A stretch of DNA of 64,000 nt from Anaerolineae bacterium (GTDB lineage Bacteria; Chloroflexota; Anaerolineae; UBA4142; SHND01): NCBI GenBank assembly GCA_020851635.1, contig JADZCJ010000084.1, positions 1 to 64,000 on the forward strand, given 5' to 3'. Made by a program: the position numbers and the translations under genes. How positions within the stretch are numbered: the first letter of the stretch is position 1; every line of letters starts with the position of its first letter. Below, piece by piece: positions 1,031-38,248 of the stretch. Below the pieces are notes generated by a model, which was not told the origin of the DNA, made no database searches, and was given only the letters and a program-made list of their open reading frames with translations.

Positions 1031-4000
1031 ATGATTTGTCCACAGTGCGGACACAAGAATCCGGCAGGCGTCGCCGTATGCGCCAACTGCGCGACGCCGC
1101 TGACCAACCTCTGCCCCAACTGCGGTTTTGAAAATCCGCGTGGCTTTAAATTCTGCGGCAACTGCGGCGTCAACCTGCTGACCGCAACGATGGCGCGCAC
1201 GTCGAACTCGGAGAAATTGAGACGAGTGCAGGGCGTCATGCCCGGACCCCTCGTTGACAAAATCCTCAACGCAAGCAAGCACATTGAAGGAGAACGGCGG
1301 ACCGTCACCATTCTCTTTTCCGACATTGTCGGCTTTACGAGCATTTCCGAAAAACTGGACCCCGAGACCGTTTATAACATTATAGACGCCAGCGTTTCCG
1401 CATTTCGCGACGAAATTTACGCGCACGAGGGCACGCTCGACAAATTTATGGGCGACGGCGTGATGGCGTTGTTTGGCGCGCCGGTGATGCACGAAGACGA
1501 CCCGATCCGCGCGGTACGGTGCGCGCTGGGGATGCAATCGGCGCTCAAGCGCATCAACGATGAAATGGTGACGCGGCACGGAATTACACTGCAGATGCGG
1601 ATCGGGTTGAATCTCGGGACGGTGGTGGTCGCGGACATTGGCGCGGACTTGCGAATGAATTACACCGCGTTGGGGGACACGGTGAATGTGGCGTCACGCC
1701 TGCAAAGCGTGGCAGAGCCGGGGACCATATTGGTGAGCCACGCGGTTTACGAGCAAACGCGCGCTCAATTTGACTATGCCGAACTCGGTTCGATTCGGGT
1801 CAAGGGGCGGGTGGAACCTGTCGAAATTTATCAGGTGACAGGGATGAAACGCGATTCGGGACGGGCGCGCGGGATTCCCGGGCTGGCGGCGCCGATGGTG
1901 GGGCGCGAACAGGAGCTGGCGCGGCTGCAGCATATTGTAGAAACAGTGGTGCGCGACGGGACCGGCGGTGTGGTCCTGGTGACAGGCGAGGCGGGGATTG
2001 GCAAATCGCGGCTCACCGGCGAGTTGAAACAATGGATTGCGCGCACGCCCGAATTGGCAACATTGAGCGTTTACGAAGGGCACTGTGTTTCTTACGGCAA
2101 GTCGGCGTATGACGTTCAAATCCAGATCTTGTACGCGCTCCTGGAACTTGGACCCGAAGATTCGGTGATCCTGCGGCGAGACAAGATCAAGACTCGGGTG
2201 CGCGAACTGGTGCGCGACGGCGCGCTGTTTGACGTGCTGCCGTATATTGAAAACCTGATGGGGCTACAGCCCAGCGCGCACGATGCGGCAGACAGGATTC
2301 GTCATCTGGAACCCGCCCAACTGCGTCAGCAGACGTTTCTGGCGGTGCGGGAGCTCTTGATGCATGCCGCGCGCGAACGCCCAACGTGCCTGATCTTTGA
2401 AGATTTGCATTGGATAGACAAGCCGTCGTTGGACTTGCTCATGTTTCTGTTCAACGCGACAGAGGATGCGCCGCTGGCGCTGCTTTGCTTGTCGCGCCCA
2501 ACCGACAACCAGGCAGTGCCGCAGATTCAACGCGTCGGGGCGGCGGCGTTGGAAAACCGTTTCGTCAATATCACGCTCGAACCGCTCTCGATGCAAGAGA
2601 GCACGACACTGATCGAACATTTGTTGACGCTTGGCGACCTGCCCGAGACATTACGACAGGTCATTCCGCAGCGCGCGGAAGGAAACCCGTTTTTTTTGGA
2701 AGAGATTCTGCGCGCCATGATTGACCGCAATATTATCCGGCACCGCATGGACCACTGGGAAGTGACGCCCGGCGCGGATATTCATTCGTTCACAATTCCC
2801 CGCACGCTGGAAAGTCTGATCATGACGCGCCTGGACCATTTGTCCGAATCCACGCGTTTTACCGCGCAGTGCGCGTCGGTCATCGGGCGCGATTTCAACG
2901 ATTCGATCTTGCTGCGGGTCGCCGACACCAGCATGGCGCGGATGGAAAACGATTTACAGGAATTGATTGACCACGAGGTTGTCTTTCAATACCCCGGCTT
3001 GAGCGACAGGGGCGCGCACGAACGCCATCTGGGGTTTCGCCACATCCTGATCCAGCAGATCATTTACAACAGCATCCTGCTGCGGAGGCGCGACCAACTG
3101 CATCACAAGATTGCAGCGGCAATCGAAGAATTGTATCCCGACCGGCTGGACGAGCAGGCGGAACGGCTGGCGTTTCATTATGGCGAGAGCAAAGATGCCG
3201 CCCGCGCGCTCCCGCACGTCATTCGTTCGGCGGAACGCGCCGCTTCGCGTTTTGCGAATGAAGAGGCGCTGGCATCGTATCGGCTGGCGCTGGAGATGGC
3301 GATACGGATTCAAGCGCCCTCTGAGACGCGCACGCAGATCCTGGTCGGATTGGGCGATTCGCAAACGCACATTGGGGATTTCGACGGAGCGGCGACAAGC
3401 TTGCGGGCGGCGTGGGATTTGGCACGCAGCGCCGCCGCCAGTCCCGCGCAGGCACGGCAGACCGCAGAGATCGCGCGGCGGCTGGGGCGCGGCTATGAGC
3501 GGCGCGGAAAATACGACGATGCGATGCAGTGGCTCGAGAGCGCGCTGCGCGAAATCAATCGCGATATATCTTCGGAACATGCGGTCGAACGGGCGCGGAT
3601 TTATCTGGATATCGGATGGGTACACTATCGGCGCGGCAATCTGGACGACGCAGAACACTGGCGGCTGCGCGCGCTTGAGATTTCGGAAGGGCTGGACTAT
3701 TATGCCGAAATGGGCTCTGCCTATAACGGGCTGGCGGCGCTCTATAACCTGCGCGGCGACCGCGTGCGGGCGATTGAATTTGCCGAGCGCGGGCTGCAAG
3801 TGCGCGAAATGATCGGCGACGTGGAAGGGATGAGTCGCTCGCACTCGAATCTGGGCGCGACGCTGCTGAACCTGGGTCGGTGGGACGACGCCCTGCCCCA
3901 CCTGGAGCAAAGTCTGGAATTTAAAAAGCGCATCGGCGACGCGAAAAATCTTGCCGCCGCGTATACGAATCTGGGGCATTACTATTTGTACAAGGGGGAG

Positions 4001-4614: not shown

Positions 4615-6294
4615 ATGCGCAGTGATCTCCGGTTGATTCCGTTTTTTAGCGAGCTGGACGATGGGGTGTTGAGCGCCATCGAAAAGTATTGTCGCCGCGA
4701 ACATTATGGACGCGGCGAAGTCGTGTTTGCCGAAGGTGACTTTGGGGACCGAATGTATGTGATTGAATCGGGGCAGGTCAAAGTCACTCTGGAACGGAAT
4801 GGGGCGGAAAAGATCTTTTCGTATCTGAATCCCGGAAACTTTTTTGGGGAAACGGCGCTGTTGACGGGAGAGCCGCGCAACGCAAGCATTCGCGTGGTGA
4901 TTGATTCGGACCTGATCTCACTGGGGCGGCAAGAGCTGCAAGAATTGGTGGAGGCGCATCCCAGCATTGCGGTCGAAATCAGCCGCGAGCTCTCGCGTCG
5001 AATCACGCGGCAGATTCAAACCCCCGTTCAGCAGGAAGAGCTGAATATTATCGCCGTAGTCGGGCACCAGGCGCCGGCGCTGGCGGAACAGATCGCCCGG
5101 CTCGTGTGCGAAGAAGTGTTTCTCTTTGACCTGGGGGGATTGGGGGGATTGCCCGTTGACCAAACCGCGCTCTCACAGGGGGGGGTGCAGTTGGCGCACG
5201 GCGGGCAGAACCTGACCGCCGACGATCTGCCGGGGCGGCTTTCGACGCTGGTGCAAGAATATTTTTGGGTGATCCTTGCAATCCCACTGCGCCCGTCGCT
5301 CTTGACCATCAAGGCGATTGACCTTGCAGATATGACGATCCAGCTGGCAGAGACACCGGAACGATGGCTGACACAGGCGGCGACGCGTTCGTTCAGTGTG
5401 GTCAAACCGGAACCAAAACAGATCGCGCGGTTGGCGCGCAAGATCACGCGGCGGCAGCTAGGGCTGGCGCTGTCATCGGGGGGGGCGCGCGGGCTGGCGC
5501 ATATTGGCGTGCTGGACGTATTCGAGCGCGAGCGAATCCCAATTGACATGATTGCGGCATCGTCCATGGGCGCAATTGTGGGCGCGCTGTACGCGGCCGG
5601 CGCGCCGTTCGATGAAATCACGCGCGTGGCGCAGCTGATGAAAAAGCAAACCAATTTCATGACCGGCATTGCGATGTGGGACGTGAGGATTCCGCCGCGT
5701 TCGGGTCTGGTGCGGGGCGCCCGGACGCTCGATTATTTCAAAAAGATTTTGCATGACCGCAAATTCGAAGAGCTGGAGACACCGCTCTCGGTCGTGGCGT
5801 GCGACGTGATTACGGGGGAAGAGGTGGTGTTTGACACGGGGGCCGTGGCGGAGGCGGTGCGGGCTTCGATGTCACTCATTGGCGTGTTTGAGCCGGCGCA
5901 CCTGCGCGACCACTATTTGGTGGACGGCGGCACGGTGAACCCGGTGCCGACTTCGATCTTGCAAGACAAGCACGCGGATATTGTTGTCGCTTCGAACGTG
6001 ATTCCCGGTCTGCCCGAACGCATGCACCGCCAGCAGCAGCTCAGGACGGGCAAAGCGCCGAATGTAATTTCGATCATTTTGGGCGCCATCGAAATTATGG
6101 AAAGTGAAATTATTCGCGCCCGCTCTGACGCGATTGACGTGATGATTGCGCCGGACGTGGCGCAGTTTACGACGCTGGATTATGACCGTGTGGACGAAAT
6201 TATCCAGGTGGGCCGCAATGCGGCGGTTAAGGCACTGCCCCAAATTCGGGAGATGCTCGCCCCCAAGCCACGCGTCAAAGCACTTGCGGTGTGA
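4615..6294 (+). CDS. Cyclic nucleotide-binding patatin-like phospholipase
   Basis: A 559-residue protein with an N-terminal cyclic nucleotide-binding domain (about 8-125) and a C-terminal patatin lipase domain (about 283-480). The phosphate-binding cassette FGETALL...GEPRNAS keeps the Glu and Arg that bind cAMP in this family. The lipase has the oxyanion loop SSGGARG near 289, a probable nucleophile Ser317 in A-S-S-M-G (the first Gly of GxSxG is Ala) and Asp437 in VDGG. The order resembles bacterial and eukaryotic neuropathy-target-esterase proteins, but without a membrane anchor. The gene follows the cyclase gene by 26 bases, so cAMP-gated hydrolysis of lipid or lysophospholipid is a reasonable inference. 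The start is uncertain: a TTG lies nine bases upstream, and neither has a good ribosome binding site. Confidence 0.88.
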   Translation: MRSDLRLIPFFSELDDGVLSAIEKYCRREHYGRGEVVFAEGDFGDRMYVIESGQVKVTLERNGAEKIFSYLNPGNFFGETALLTGEPRNASIRVVIDSDLISLGRQELQELVEAHPSIAVEISRELSRRITRQIQTPVQQEELNIIAVVGHQAPALAEQIARLVCEEVFLFDLGGLGGLPVDQTALSQGGVQLAHGGQNLTADDLPGRLSTLVQEYFWVILAIPLRPSLLTIKAIDLADMTIQLAETPERWLTQAATRSFSVVKPEPKQIARLARKITRRQLGLALSSGGARGLAHIGVLDVFERERIPIDMIAASSMGAIVGALYAAGAPFDEITRVAQLMKKQTNFMTGIAMWDVRIPPRSGLVRGARTLDYFKKILHDRKFEELETPLSVVACDVITGEEVVFDTGAVAEAVRASMSLIGVFEPAHLRDHYLVDGGTVNPVPTSILQDKHADIVVASNVIPGLPERMHRQQQLRTGKAPNVISIILGAIEIMESEIIRARSDAIDVMIAPDVAQFTTLDYDRVDEIIQVGRNAAVKALPQIREMLAPKPRVKALAV

Positions 6295-22124: not shown

Positions 22125-23069
22125 TCAATCTTCTGCCTGAGCGGCGCGGCGCGTTGTGTTGATGAAAAGAGTGGTAAAAATGATCACCATGACGAGCAGT
22201 GAATAGGCGAGGGCGGAGGCGTAGCCGAGGTTGCCATTCTTCATGCCCACCGTATACGCGTACATCGTCACGGTTTCGGTCGCCGTCCCGGGACCACCGC
22301 CGGTCATGACCATCACGATATCAAAGAGCTTGAACGCTTCGAGCGCGCGAATCACGATGACGGTGATAGAGACGGGCGCCAGCATGGGAAAGGTAATGTG
22401 TCGAAAGATGTACCATTCCCCGGCGCCATCCACACGCGCGCTCTCGAACACCTCAGGCGGCAGCGCCTGGAGCCCCGCCAGGAGGACGATAATCATGAAT
22501 GGCACCCACTCCCAGGTATCGAGCAGAATCAAAGAGGGGAGCGCCATCGTCGGGTTGCTCAACCAGGGGATGTTCGGAAGACCGACACGCTGGAGGAGGT
22601 CGTTGATCGGACCCTGGCTCTCGTTGAAAAGCATCCGCCCGACATATCCGACCGCCGCCGGGGTCAACATCATCGGGATCAAGAACGCCACACGAAAAAA
22701 CCGACGCCCTTTAATGTCCTGGTTGAGCAGCAGCGCAAGCGCCAATCCCAAAAAGTACTGGAGAGTCACAGACGCCAGCACAAAAATCACTGTCACCCGT
22801 GCTGTATTCCAAAAGCGCGTGTCATTAAAGAGCGTCACAAAATTTTGCAGTCCGGCAAACCGAATGCCACCTTCGAGGCGACTGAGGTCCCAACTCAGAA
22901 AAACGAGGGCAAAGGAAAAGAGCAGGGGGAAAACTGACAGCCCGAGGATCAAGAGGACCGTCGGCATGAGAAAGGCGTAACTCGCCGCGCGGTCTCTTTT
23001 GGGCGTCACCTTGTGCAGGGTTGGACGTGGAGCAGCCGTGCCGGCTGCGGTGCTGGCGGCGTTTGCCAT
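22125..23069 (-). CDS. Carbohydrate ABC transporter permease (MalF/UgpA type)
   Basis: A 314-residue inner-membrane permease with six helices after a 40-residue cytosolic N-terminus that is rich in Ala/Thr. The EAA loop reads FESARVDGAGEWYIFRHI. It pairs with the MalG-type permease just downstream. Two long hairpin elements lie between it and the binding-protein gene, a position where hairpins often set unequal expression of binding protein and permease. Confidence 0.93.
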   Translation of the reverse strand: MANAASTAAGTAAPRPTLHKVTPKRDRAASYAFLMPTVLLILGLSVFPLLFSFALVFLSWDLSRLEGGIRFAGLQNFVTLFNDTRFWNTARVTVIFVLASVTLQYFLGLALALLLNQDIKGRRFFRVAFLIPMMLTPAAVGYVGRMLFNESQGPINDLLQRVGLPNIPWLSNPTMALPSLILLDTWEWVPFMIIVLLAGLQALPPEVFESARVDGAGEWYIFRHITFPMLAPVSITVIVIRALEAFKLFDIVMVMTGGGPGTATETVTMYAYTVGMKNGNLGYASALAYSLLVMVIIFTTLFINTTRRAAQAED

Positions 23070-23082
23070 GAGCGTCTATCCG

Positions 23083-23191
23083 TAGCGCAACAGCATGAGA
23101 TTGCGGCGATGAATTTTTCCGCGTCGTGTCCCGTGTATGATGGGTCGCGCGACATCACCGAATCCGGCAATTGCCTCATGCTGTTGCACTA
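23083..23191. repeat. Long inverted-repeat element, copy 1
   Basis: A 109-bp element whose ends pair: TAGCGCAACAGCATGAG at the left and CTCATGCTGTTGCACTA at the right (one mismatch). The next inner block pairs ATTGC with GCAAT, then CGGCGATG with CATCACCG, and the centre can pair again. The same outer block (T-A-G-Y-G-CAACA-C-ATG) and the inner ATTGCGG...GGCAATT occur in the elements at 31421-31542 and 38055-38145. It is a candidate MITE or structured intergenic element. No clear target-site duplication is seen. Confidence 0.8.
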
Positions 23192-23194
23192 TCC

Positions 23195-23295
23195 AGTTTG
23201 CATCCGAAAAGCCCTAAAACCCAGCTTTTCTTGGTGAGTATCCGCCTAAAAGAGTCGGATTCGCGGTTGTCCAGAACCCTTTTCGGATGCAAACT
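23195..23295. repeat. Long inverted repeat with 17-bp perfect ends
   Basis: AGTTTGCATCCGAAAAG (23195-23211) and its exact complement (23279-23295) bound a 67-bp centre. It starts four bases after copy 1 of the other long inverted-repeat element. Its ends differ from that family. It may be a separate small non-autonomous element, or an mRNA-stabilising hairpin between the binding-protein and permease genes. Confidence 0.8.
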
Positions 23296-23380: not shown

Positions 23381-25027
23381 TTATTGTGCGGGAAGTCCCA
23401 GCATCTGACGATAGAGCTTTATCTGCTGGTCTCGTCCGAGGCGGTCGGTGATGGCATTCCATTGTTTTGCCACCTCGTCCAACGCCTCCTGGGAGCTCGT
23501 TTCACCTGCTACCGCGCGCGCCAACTGTGTGTCGAGCGCATCAAAGTACTCGGCTGCGCCCGTGATGCGGAGGTCAACCACCGCATTGGGGCTGTTGATC
23601 GTATCGCGGACGGCAGTGAGGTATTCTGTCGCCTGTTCCTCGCTCATGCCTGCGGCAACCCAGGGGGCGAGATCGTTCATGTCACTGTAAAAGTGCGGGT
23701 TGACACCGGAACCGGCTGTCGTGACCAGTTTGGCGCTCATGTTCTGACTGCCCATGAACGACAAGAAATCAAACGCACATTCCGGATTCTTGGTTGTTGC
23801 AGAGACACCACCGACCCAACCACCGAATGCCAGGAACGGCGCCTGATTGTATTGTTTGACCCACGCTTTGGTCTGCGAATCATAGTATTCGTCCACGCCC
23901 GGATGCGCTTGGGCGGACCACCCTTTTGTGACCACAGAAGAATTGGGGTCGGCTGACAGAGGACCTACATCACCCCAGTCAATTGCCAGGGCAAGTTTAC
24001 CCGCCGGAAATTCGCTCCGAATATTGCCCACATCCCAGTTCACGACGTCCGGGGGACCGACCGCGACCAGGGACGAGTAGAAATCCAGCGCCTTGACAAA
24101 GCCGGGGTTGTTGATGCGCGGTTCCATTGTCTCGGGGTCGAAAAAGTAAGCGGGATCGTTTGGCGCTTTGGCATACGGCGCGGCGATGCCGAGGTACGTC
24201 CAGTAGGATTGTGCTTTGCGCTTGAATGCCGTCCCGGCGCCATAGATCGTGTTGCCATCAATTTCTTTGCCGTTAAAGAACTCGGCAATGTCATGATACT
24301 GGTCCCAGGTCTTGATGGGCACGGGCAGGTCATAGCCGTATTTGGCTTTGAACTCTGCCATGTATGTGGGGTCAGTCAACAAGTCTTTGCGGAGATAGGT
24401 GTTGTGCGCATCGCCGTCATACGGTGTGCCATACACCTTGCCGCCCCACGACAGGATGCGATCGCGGTAGGTGGGAATCAGATACTGATAGCCCATCGCG
24501 TCCTGATTCGCTTGTGGGACTTCGAGGACATATCCTGCGCCCATGATATCGCCTGCCCAGTCGGAGGCATAGACGATAATGTCAAACGGGCTGGCGCCGG
24601 AGACATATCCGGCTCGAATCTTTTCAAAGAGGTCGCCAAAGGGGAACGTCTGCACTTCGACCGTCCCACCGGTCTTGGCGCTCCAGTCCTTCCAAAGGTT
24701 CTCCATCGGGCTTGCGATCTGGGGACCCGTTTGGGTGGCGACCACCAGATTGACGCCGTCACACTTGGCAGTGCCAATCCCGGCCGGGAAAAGGTTCGTG
24801 GGGTCTGCCTTGACATCAGCCACATCGCCAGCGGCAGGCGGCGCAGTGGTCGCAGCAGGGGCGCTGGTGGCGACAGGCGCGGTGGTGGGCGCAGGCGCGC
24901 TGGTCGCTGCCGGTGCGGTCGTGGGTGCAGGGGCGGGCGCGGGTGGCGCGCTCGCCGGAGCGGCGCACGCCGCGAGAAAAACCAAAACAGTCAGCACCGC
25001 AAAGGCGCTCAGTAGTTTTTTCTTCAT
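23381..25027 (-). CDS. Sugar ABC transporter solute-binding lipoprotein
   Basis: A 548-residue family-1 extracellular solute-binding protein. The signal peptide ends in the lipobox LAAC with Cys21 lipidated. A low-complexity Ala/Pro/Thr linker (about 22-65) spaces the domain from the membrane. The rest is the two-lobed MalE-like fold. The sequence is longer than average (420-450) because of inserts and the linker. With the two permeases it imports an unknown sugar or polyol. The start has GAGGAGAAG just upstream. The gene is the first of the transport block, next to the IclR regulator that probably controls it. Confidence 0.9.
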   Translation of the reverse strand: MKKKLLSAFAVLTVLVFLAACAAPASAPPAPAPAPTTAPAATSAPAPTTAPVATSAPAATTAPPAAGDVADVKADPTNLFPAGIGTAKCDGVNLVVATQTGPQIASPMENLWKDWSAKTGGTVEVQTFPFGDLFEKIRAGYVSGASPFDIIVYASDWAGDIMGAGYVLEVPQANQDAMGYQYLIPTYRDRILSWGGKVYGTPYDGDAHNTYLRKDLLTDPTYMAEFKAKYGYDLPVPIKTWDQYHDIAEFFNGKEIDGNTIYGAGTAFKRKAQSYWTYLGIAAPYAKAPNDPAYFFDPETMEPRINNPGFVKALDFYSSLVAVGPPDVVNWDVGNIRSEFPAGKLALAIDWGDVGPLSADPNSSVVTKGWSAQAHPGVDEYYDSQTKAWVKQYNQAPFLAFGGWVGGVSATTKNPECAFDFLSFMGSQNMSAKLVTTAGSGVNPHFYSDMNDLAPWVAAGMSEEQATEYLTAVRDTINSPNAVVDLRITGAAEYFDALDTQLARAVAGETSSQEALDEVAKQWNAITDRLGRDQQIKLYRQMLGLPAQ

Positions 25028-31420: not shown

Positions 31421-31542
31421 TAGCGGCACAACAACATGGGATTGCGGCGATGTGATGCTTGGCGTCGAGTTTTGGGTCCGCGTGGCGAACGCGGCTCGCG
31501 CGTCGTCGCTCGACCCGGCAATTTGATCATGTTGCTGCGCCA
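31421..31542. repeat. Long inverted-repeat element, copy 2
   Basis: A 122-bp element with the same outer and inner blocks as copies 1 and 3. GGCACAACAACATG pairs with CATGTTGCTGCGCC (two mismatches) and ATTGCGG with CCGGCAAT. The centre differs in sequence and is G/C-rich (AACGCGG and CTCGCGCG tracts). It lies between two minus-strand genes, with no coding potential of its own. Confidence 0.8.
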
Positions 31543-35747: not shown

Positions 35748-38054
35748 ATGCGAAAAATAGTCGGTCTGAATCATTCGAATTGGTTTGTGGGAGCGGTCGC
35801 GCCGCAGAAATTTCCCGCAGCGAACGATTTGGCGCAGGTCAGGGGGTGGCTGCCCGCCCAAGTTCCGGGCGACGTGCGACTCGCCCTGTTGAACCTCAAC
35901 AAGATTCCCGACCCGTTTCTTGGCAAGAACAACGAGGCAAGTCAATGGGTGGACGAGTATGATTGGTGGTATCGCTGTGATGTGCTTGCGTCCGAGCTGT
36001 TTCAAGACAAAACCGCGGCGAGCGGGCGGCGCACCTTTTTGATTTTCGAAGGGGTTGATTACCAGTGTGCGGTTTATTGGAATGACTTGGAATTGGGCAG
36101 ACATGTGGGAATGTTTTCGCGGCAGGTGTATGAGATTCCGCTCGAAAAAATCTTGGAGGGAGCCAATCGGCTTGCTGTGCGGGTGTCGGGCGGAAACCAG
36201 CTGCCGCGCATGAAACTCGAACCGCAAGAGAAGGTGTGGCGTCATGTCGCGGGACGGTTGCTGCCGCACGGGGCGCAAGCGGGTGAATTTCCCGACCGTT
36301 ATGCGACGTTGAAATGCCAAATGTCTTTTGGCTGGGATTTTGCGCCGCGCTTGTTGACGTGCGGGATTTGGGACGAGGCGTTTATTGCGCAGACACGCGA
36401 GGTGTTTGTGCGCGATGTGTGGGTGCAAGGTGTGCCGGACGGACGGGTGCGTGTGACGCTGGATGTGGACGCGAAAACGCCGCGCGAGCTGCGAATCCGT
36501 TTTGAAGCGCGACTGCGCGAAACCCAGCCGGACAAGAATCTCGCCAATTCGCTGCAGACGTTCGAGATGCCACTGCATTTGGAAGCGAGCGGCGCACAAA
36601 CGTTTGCGCTGGAATTGACCGAGCCGCGCGCGTGGAACCCGTGGGACCGGGGCGAACAGAATTTGTATGAGCTGAGAGTGACCCTGTTGGATGAGCAGGG
36701 TGAGCTGGATGCGGTCGAGACGCGCTTTGGACTGCGAACCATTGATCTGGACCGAAATGAGAGAGCGCCCGACGATGCCGCGTCATGGACTTTGCGCGTC
36801 AATGGGCAGCCGGAGTTTATTCGAGGCGCGAATTGGGTCCCGGCGGATGCAATTCCGGCGCGAGTGACGCGCAAAGACTATGCAGAGCTGTTGACGCTGG
36901 CGCGTCAAGCCAACATCAATCTATTACGCGTCTGGGGCGGCGGACTAAAGGAAAAGCGCGCTTTTTACGAACTGTGCGACGAGCTGGGGATTCTGGTGTG
37001 GCAGGAATTTCCGTTTTCGGGCGCGGGGGTGGATTATTTTCCCAGAGACCGCGAGTTTACGAGTCTGGCGCGGCGGGAATGTGATGCGATCGTGCGCGCG
37101 CTGCGTAATCATCCTTCGGTCGCGCTCTGGTGCGGCGGCAACGAGTTTATCCCGCGCGCCAACCGGCGTCTGATCGAGACACTGCGCGAGGCGGTGGCGG
37201 CGAATGATGGCACTCGACCTTTCAAGCCCGCGTCGCCGTCGGCGGATGAATCACACAACTGGCGCGTCTGGCATGGGATGGCAAACACGCGCGATTATGA
37301 AAAGGACACCGCGCTCTTTTTTGGCGAGTTTGGACTGCAAGCGGCGCCAAATGTCGAAACCTTGAACCGGTTTCTATCTGACGAGGCAGTTTACCCGCCC
37401 GATGAGAACTGGGAGTATCACAATGCCGAGCGCGAAAAACTCTGGCGCTATGCGCGCCCCCTGCTGGGCGACCACGACCCGGAAACCGTGTCCGCGGAAC
37501 AATTTGTGCGCGCGTCACAAGAGGCGCAGCTGCGCGGACTGCAAGTTGCAATCGAACACGCCCGGCGGAGCAAACCGCGCGTCTCGGGGTGCGCTTTTTG
37601 GCAGTTTAACGAACCCTGGCACTCGATCTGCTGGAGCGTGGTGGACTATACGCGCACGCCCAAACGCGCCTACGGGAAAATCAAAGAGCTGTATAATCCC
37701 GTCCTTGTATCCTTTGCGTTTCCGTATCGCATCCGGTCGGCGGGTGAGATTGTGAGCGGGCAAGTGTGGCTCGTGAACGACATGCTCGGCGAGCGGAAGG
37801 GGACGCTGCGCGCGTGGCACAACGAGACAGAGGTGATGGCGTTCGACGTGGTATTGCCTCCAAACGGGGCACACGCGCTGGGAGGGCTGGACCTACGACT
37901 GGAACCGGGAGCAAATTCTTTACGTTTTGAATTGCGCGGGAATGATTTTGTTTCGACCAACGAGTATGATTTGAACTATTGCGACGGTGGAGAAATCACC
38001 CTGCGGCGCGCGTTCCTGACGGATGCGGCGGCGTGGTTACGCACAAGCATCTAG
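35748..38054 (+). CDS. GH2 beta-mannosidase-like glycosidase
   Basis: A 768-residue family GH2 enzyme. It has the N-terminal sugar-binding domain, the Ig-like domain and the TIM barrel. The acid/base lies in ALWCGGNEF and the nucleophile in FFGEFGLQAAP, both glutamates, as in beta-mannosidases and exo-beta-glucosaminidases. It removes terminal beta-mannose (or a related sugar) and is cytosolic (no signal peptide). The start is three bases after the preceding glycosidase, so they share one transcript. It is followed directly by a long inverted-repeat element. Confidence 0.88.
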   Translation: MRKIVGLNHSNWFVGAVAPQKFPAANDLAQVRGWLPAQVPGDVRLALLNLNKIPDPFLGKNNEASQWVDEYDWWYRCDVLASELFQDKTAASGRRTFLIFEGVDYQCAVYWNDLELGRHVGMFSRQVYEIPLEKILEGANRLAVRVSGGNQLPRMKLEPQEKVWRHVAGRLLPHGAQAGEFPDRYATLKCQMSFGWDFAPRLLTCGIWDEAFIAQTREVFVRDVWVQGVPDGRVRVTLDVDAKTPRELRIRFEARLRETQPDKNLANSLQTFEMPLHLEASGAQTFALELTEPRAWNPWDRGEQNLYELRVTLLDEQGELDAVETRFGLRTIDLDRNERAPDDAASWTLRVNGQPEFIRGANWVPADAIPARVTRKDYAELLTLARQANINLLRVWGGGLKEKRAFYELCDELGILVWQEFPFSGAGVDYFPRDREFTSLARRECDAIVRALRNHPSVALWCGGNEFIPRANRRLIETLREAVAANDGTRPFKPASPSADESHNWRVWHGMANTRDYEKDTALFFGEFGLQAAPNVETLNRFLSDEAVYPPDENWEYHNAEREKLWRYARPLLGDHDPETVSAEQFVRASQEAQLRGLQVAIEHARRSKPRVSGCAFWQFNEPWHSICWSVVDYTRTPKRAYGKIKELYNPVLVSFAFPYRIRSAGEIVSGQVWLVNDMLGERKGTLRAWHNETEVMAFDVVLPPNGAHALGGLDLRLEPGANSLRFELRGNDFVSTNEYDLNYCDGGEITLRRAFLTDAAAWLRTSI

Positions 38055-38145
38055 TAGTGCAACAACATGAGATTGCGGAGTGGAGTATTGGGTTTTATAA
38101 CTCGCGTGCCGTCACTTGACTTGGCAATTTCATGTTGTTGCACTA
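38055..38145. repeat. Long inverted-repeat element, copy 3
   Basis: A 91-bp element starting right after the mannosidase stop. TAGTGCAACAACATGA (38055-38070) and its exact complement (38130-38145) pair over 16 bases; the inner ATTGC (38072-38076) pairs with GCAAT (38124-38128). It is the tidiest of the three copies. It could double as the 3' hairpin of the mannosidase transcript. Confidence 0.85.
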
Positions 38146-38248
38146 GAAATTGTCGAGTAAAAGACGAGCAAGGCGTGACATTGCGGCTGCGCAAAACGGC
38201 GTTCGAGCGCAAACAACCATTCTGAGATAGTTTTACAAGGGGGAGAAC

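Follow-up and report, generated by a model that had tools for sequence, protein, structure and literature searches.

What is the 109-bp inverted repeat that lies between two transporter genes of an Anaerolineae bacterium (assembly GCA_020851635.1)? By "the window" we mean the whole stretch of 64,000 nucleotides that was analysed (contig JADZCJ010000084.1, positions 1 to 64,000), and an earlier reading of it had offered three options: a MITE, a structured regulatory RNA, or an mRNA stabiliser. The first of these is the one that stood. The repeat very probably belongs to a non-autonomous MITE family of the IS630 type, related to Tc1/mariner, because there are about 50 copies without coding capacity, bounded by inverted repeats and CTAG/TA flanks, with an empty orthologous site for one copy and a transposase gene in the same genome whose element has related ends. 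On the sequence comparisons described here, the family has spread within a single Chloroflexota species by insertion at the rare tetranucleotide CTAG, and a larger IS630-type transposon most likely supplied the transposase.

Copies in the window and in the genome

The element under study, copy 1, occupies positions 23083-23191 on the forward strand. Its left terminal inverted repeat (23083-23099, forward) and right terminal inverted repeat (23175-23191, reverse) are arms of 17 nt that are 94% complementary, and it sits, as had been proposed, between a permease gene (22125-23069, reverse strand) and a binding-protein gene (23381-25027, reverse strand). At two loci where the permease is 74% identical at the protein level, no element was found between the same two genes. 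Copy 1 does not have clean CTAG flanks; TATCC is present on either side (23077-23082 and 23189-23193), which reflects either chance or an unusual insertion.

Two further copies lie on the forward strand of the window. One, at 31421/31424-31542, is 119-122 bp long and the most diverged of the three; the other, at 38055-38145, is 91 bp long with perfect 16-nt ends and has CTAG on either side (38051-38054 and 38143-38146). When up to three mismatches are allowed, the end motif TAGTGCAACAACATGA is found five times in the window, where 0.29 occurrences would be expected by chance, and none of the shuffled sequences reached five.

The sequence-only reading had described three elements with common ends and had called for a search of the genome; the elements are confirmed, and the genome has many more of them. 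We extracted about 50 distinct full-length copies (54 rows, some of which are duplicates) from the 5.8 Mb genome, which is spread over 144 contigs. The named relatives of a neighbouring permease point to an Anaerolineae-like Chloroflexota host. With at most one mismatch, the end motifs occur 50 times in forward and 51 times in reverse orientation across the whole genome, compared with none in either orientation for the reversed control; with at most two, the counts are 60 and 62 compared with 26 and 28. Most copies are 94 bp long, with variants of 91-93, 101, 109, 111-112, and 119-122 bp, which often have a small additional hairpin at one position. Copy 1 groups with the 109-bp variants, and its centre has diverged. 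No protein is encoded by the family, and its copies end in terminal inverted repeats whose outer 16 nt are near-invariant (96% of cells paired); the inner ATTGC/GCAAT block that had been pointed out in the window is common to the family copies.

Outside this species the family is next to absent. A BLAST search of 59 relatives did not find it, and neither did a pattern search of 297 other genomes of the class, save for single near-matches in three; at least two of these distant hits seem to be fortuitous occurrences of the end motif in coding DNA. The congener G005 holds one decayed fragment (locus L139), and the viral contigs gave no match to TGCAACAACATGAGATTGC. Please note that the assembly of this genome is a draft, in which repeat-rich regions may be missed.

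Target site, empty site, and gene ends

CTAG is scarce in this DNA: the masked window has 13 occurrences, whereas base composition would predict 229 and a Markov estimate 31. With every copy oriented alike, 22 of the 54 extracted rows (about 50 distinct copies) show CTAG at the left flank and 34 show it at the right junction. In one tandem pair (C80:3578-3766), a single CTAG is common to two copies. In many copies only one side has CTAG, the opposite side having CTAT, CTAC, or CTAA, so we prefer a TA duplication over a 4-bp duplication of CTAG. The flanks fit better with a duplicated TA and an adjoining G that is part of the element, as in C-TA-[GTAGTGC...GCAC]-TA-G.

This pattern also bears on whether another CTAG-targeting transposase, of the IS5, IS1182, or IS4 type, could have moved the family while duplicating all four bases. 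Other CTAG-flanked elements do occur in the genome (an IS4-type element, and an IS1182-type element adjoining the IS630 copy), and duplication of CTAG is known for MITEPsy1 of Pseudomonas (PMC3189936). Against this, one-sided CTAG sites are a misfit to a 4-bp duplication, and MITE-like ends were found only in IS630, those of the L145 element, family-B, and L161 being no better than background. We regard such a mobiliser as improbable.

For the copy at L041/L180, the congener G003 provides an empty orthologous site. Both flanking genes align in order (query positions 58-802 at 73% and 903-1801 at 72%), and G003 has a 19-base spacer where L041/L180 carries a 94-bp element. The upstream gene ends in TAT-TAG in L041/L180 and in TAT-TGA in G003, which places the insertion in the stop codon and leaves the protein unchanged. 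G002 is also without the element at this site. In G005 (C207 near 38762, locus L181), a different insert, starting CTAGTGCATCATTAAACAAG, is found at the stop codon where L041 has the MITE.

By a codon-based gene call, none of the roughly 50 copies lies within a gene, and their gene contexts are tandem, divergent, and convergent. A bias in orientation relative to transcription looked suggestive at 30 copies; with more copies and the codon-based gene call it was not significant, and it weakened further once duplicate rows were removed (19 opposite and 10 same). About 15 of the roughly 50 copies sit exactly at a TAG stop codon, including the one at 38055, which adjoins the stop codon (38052-38054, forward strand, within the CTAG target) of a 768-aa ORF at 35748-38054. 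These cases show that a CTAG-targeting transposon can be placed exactly in stop codons without a change to the protein.

Is this a special affinity for gene ends? Because 6 of the 27 CTAG sites that lie outside coding sequence and belong to no MITE are themselves stop codons, special targeting is not needed, and the observed proportion cannot be distinguished from that expected of CTAG availability. The availability of CTAG, together with selection against gene disruption, would suffice to explain the positions. It is conceivable, but in our judgement doubtful, that the family has become adapted to life at gene ends, with the CTAG target and the G at its tip allowing it to enter and rebuild TAG stops, and that gene ends are safe havens common to it and to a second, unrelated CTAG-targeting MITE family.

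A candidate source transposon and known systems

The mechanism that we favour would begin with an IS630-type transposase binding the inner block of the end repeats in trans, after which it would excise the MITE and insert it at the TA within CTAG. Since the element starts with a G, the junction of TA and G would restore a TAG stop, and insertions at gene ends would thus leave the protein unchanged.

The earlier reading had advised a search for a transposase with matching ends, and a search for DDE transposases turned up a candidate for the source of this enzyme. An IS630-type element lies between CTAG sites at L154:968-2143, a location that L148 and L160 also represent. IS630, DDE_3, and helix-turn-helix domains are matched by its two reading frames, with 116.7 bits to the NCBIfam IS630 model (NF033545; cut-off 100) and a match above cut-off to Pfam DDE_3 (PF13358); its length of about 1.1-1.2 kb and its TA-flanked inverted repeats agree with membership in the IS630 family. 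The transposase ORF is split at a run of seven A residues and needs a -1 shift to join the two parts into a frame of 375 residues; the sequence across the join is typical of IS630. The frameshift may be programmed. G005 carries an element with the same ends whose transposase segment is 89% identical to that of L154 and which has, when read by eye, an apparent stop after the shift site.

The ends of the L154 element, GTACACTAACTTGATGAGAATGCGGGGTTGAG and GTACTCCAACATTATGAAATTGCGGGGTCA, have about 20-25 bp of sequence in common with the MITE, in the correct left/right order. Comparison of left with left gave a score of 17 and of right with right 18; the highest background scores over 2640 TA-anchored windows were 13 and 14. 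The outermost 10-13 bp differ, with GTAGTGCAACAAC in the MITE and GTACACTAACTT at the resident IS630 tips; the L154 copy may therefore not be the mobiliser of the family, and the actual one may be a relative that has been lost or was not assembled. Among the 298 genomes of the class, no autonomous element was found with better-matching ends than L154, and six other DDE_3 matches in this genome were set aside as sources since their ends are unrelated to the MITE. Related IS630 elements in the class lie in CTAG and start with GTGC or GTAC, after which comes a CAAC-like sequence. None is identical, but they have the GTGC..CAAC tip style in common, which puts the MITE tip, GTGCAAC, within the variation of the IS630 group.

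Homology to IS630 ends is likewise relevant to the thought that the family consists of REP/BIME-type palindromes moved by a RAYT (Y1 tyrosine) transposase. The copies are indeed dispersed, intergenic, palindromic, and numerous. Two matched terminal repeats, TA/CTAG flanks, and IS630-like ends are not REP features, and we give this possibility hardly any credence.

How, then, does the IS630-derived MITE compare with those already described? The closest precedent is RUP, the repeat unit of pneumococcus, in Streptococcus pneumoniae, a MITE of about 107 bp with about 108 intergenic copies that is linked to IS630-Spn1, has ends like it, inserts at TA, folds into a hairpin, and clusters with other repeat families (PMC2229807; PMC3049150; PMC10969869). 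Our family resembles RUP in its size, intergenic copies, likeness to the ends of a resident IS630, TA insertion, hairpin, and clustering with other repeats. It differs in its sequence, in a host from an unrelated phylum, in its strong CTAG preference, and in outer tips that differ from those of the resident IS630.

IS630 itself is described as targeting TA in 5'-CTAG-3' (Tenzen & Ohtsubo 1991, as cited in PMC2170065). Like IS630 of Shigella and ISY100 of Synechocystis, the system here would involve a Tc1/mariner-type DDE transposase and TA duplication, and IS630, according to the same source, prefers TA within CTAG (PMC2170065); those elements are autonomous and about 1 kb long, whereas the MITE family has no gene. 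MITEPsy1 of Pseudomonas syringae, a MITE of about 100 bp that inserts at CTAG or YTAA (PMC3189936), is similar in size and target and differs in its IS5-type link and 4-bp duplication. Correia/NEMIS elements of Neisseria (about 100-155 bp) also have TA at their ends and form a hairpin (PMC2229807), but their ends and host are different, and an integration host factor site and RNA processing are known for them. On these comparisons, the family appears to be a new IS630-derived MITE of a well-known kind. The Chloroflexota thereby gain an IS630-type MITE family, one that has expanded at the level of a species and whose source transposon probably lies in the same genome.

Hairpins, transcripts, and neighbouring repeats

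The strength of the hairpin is what makes a conserved structured regulatory RNA, or a leader of the riboswitch kind, worth considering. Folded as single strands, copy 1 gave z = -5.6 for one strand and -6.3 for its complement, and the copy at 38055 reached -8.9, so that folding is strong in copies with intact ends. For the 28 pairs that were named, 94.7% of cells are paired. It had been remarked that pairing is kept in spite of base changes; this is weakly true, in that changes on both sides were seen in 12 of 1370 cells, slightly above the 5.3 in shuffles, with most arm columns near-invariant. Eight of those 12 changes, or two thirds, fall at a single pair; unpaired and wobble combinations occur there about as often.

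Pairing is explained mainly by the near-invariant end repeats, and covariation is weak; such arms are to be expected of repeats retained as binding sites for a transposase, and they make no good case for a function as RNA. An Rfam scan of the window returned tRNA only and no match at any MITE copy. With varied gene contexts, no significant orientation preference, and near-restriction to one species added to this, the regulatory RNA is not supported, and we consider it very improbable. The long hairpin would instead be a consequence of the inverted repeats of a MITE. We would caution annotators that such hairpins should not be taken as regulatory RNAs.

A narrower proposal concerns copy 1 alone. 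In Escherichia coli, a REP hairpin between malE and malF stabilises or attenuates the mRNA, and by analogy the MITE between the binding-protein and permease genes might now do the same for the transporter transcript. The gap holds a second inverted repeat that adjoins copy 1 (23195-23295), with perfect 17-nt arms (AGTTTGCATCCGAAAAG) separated by 67 nt; no further copy of it was found in the window or in the fetched loci. The orthologous gaps at L116 (about 3290-3335) and L117 (about 4797-4842) are without the MITE and hold a different strong hairpin (TCGGTAGTCAGTAG...CTACTGGCTACCGA). The family overall does not have such a position preference, and the centre of copy 1 has diverged. A role of this kind is possible, if unlikely, and any effect of copy 1 on the transporter operon would be secondary.

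Other repeats are found alongside the family. A second MITE family, with about 38 copies that are 98 bp long and have ends TAGCAGGTTGTCGGAG...CTCCGACAACCTGCTA, has CTAG on both sides and lies nearly always at that target (L086-L115 and others, genome G000). At least 13 of its copies abut the first family with a CTAG in common, so that two MITE families with one target stack side by side. Its ends resemble, by eye, those of the IS1182-type element adjoining the IS630 copy (TAGCAGTCTGTCGGAGAGG), and it is probably linked to an IS1182-type transposase. The IS4-type element at L145:966-2151 lies between CTAG sites, and another element end (TACTACAACGTTACTTTGG) adjoins it at a common CTAG. Finally, L002 and L073, at the ends of contigs C5 and C108, both break directly after a MITE copy in a repeat starting CTAGTGCATCTTTAACAAAGTGATT, which is probably an unassembled insertion sequence.
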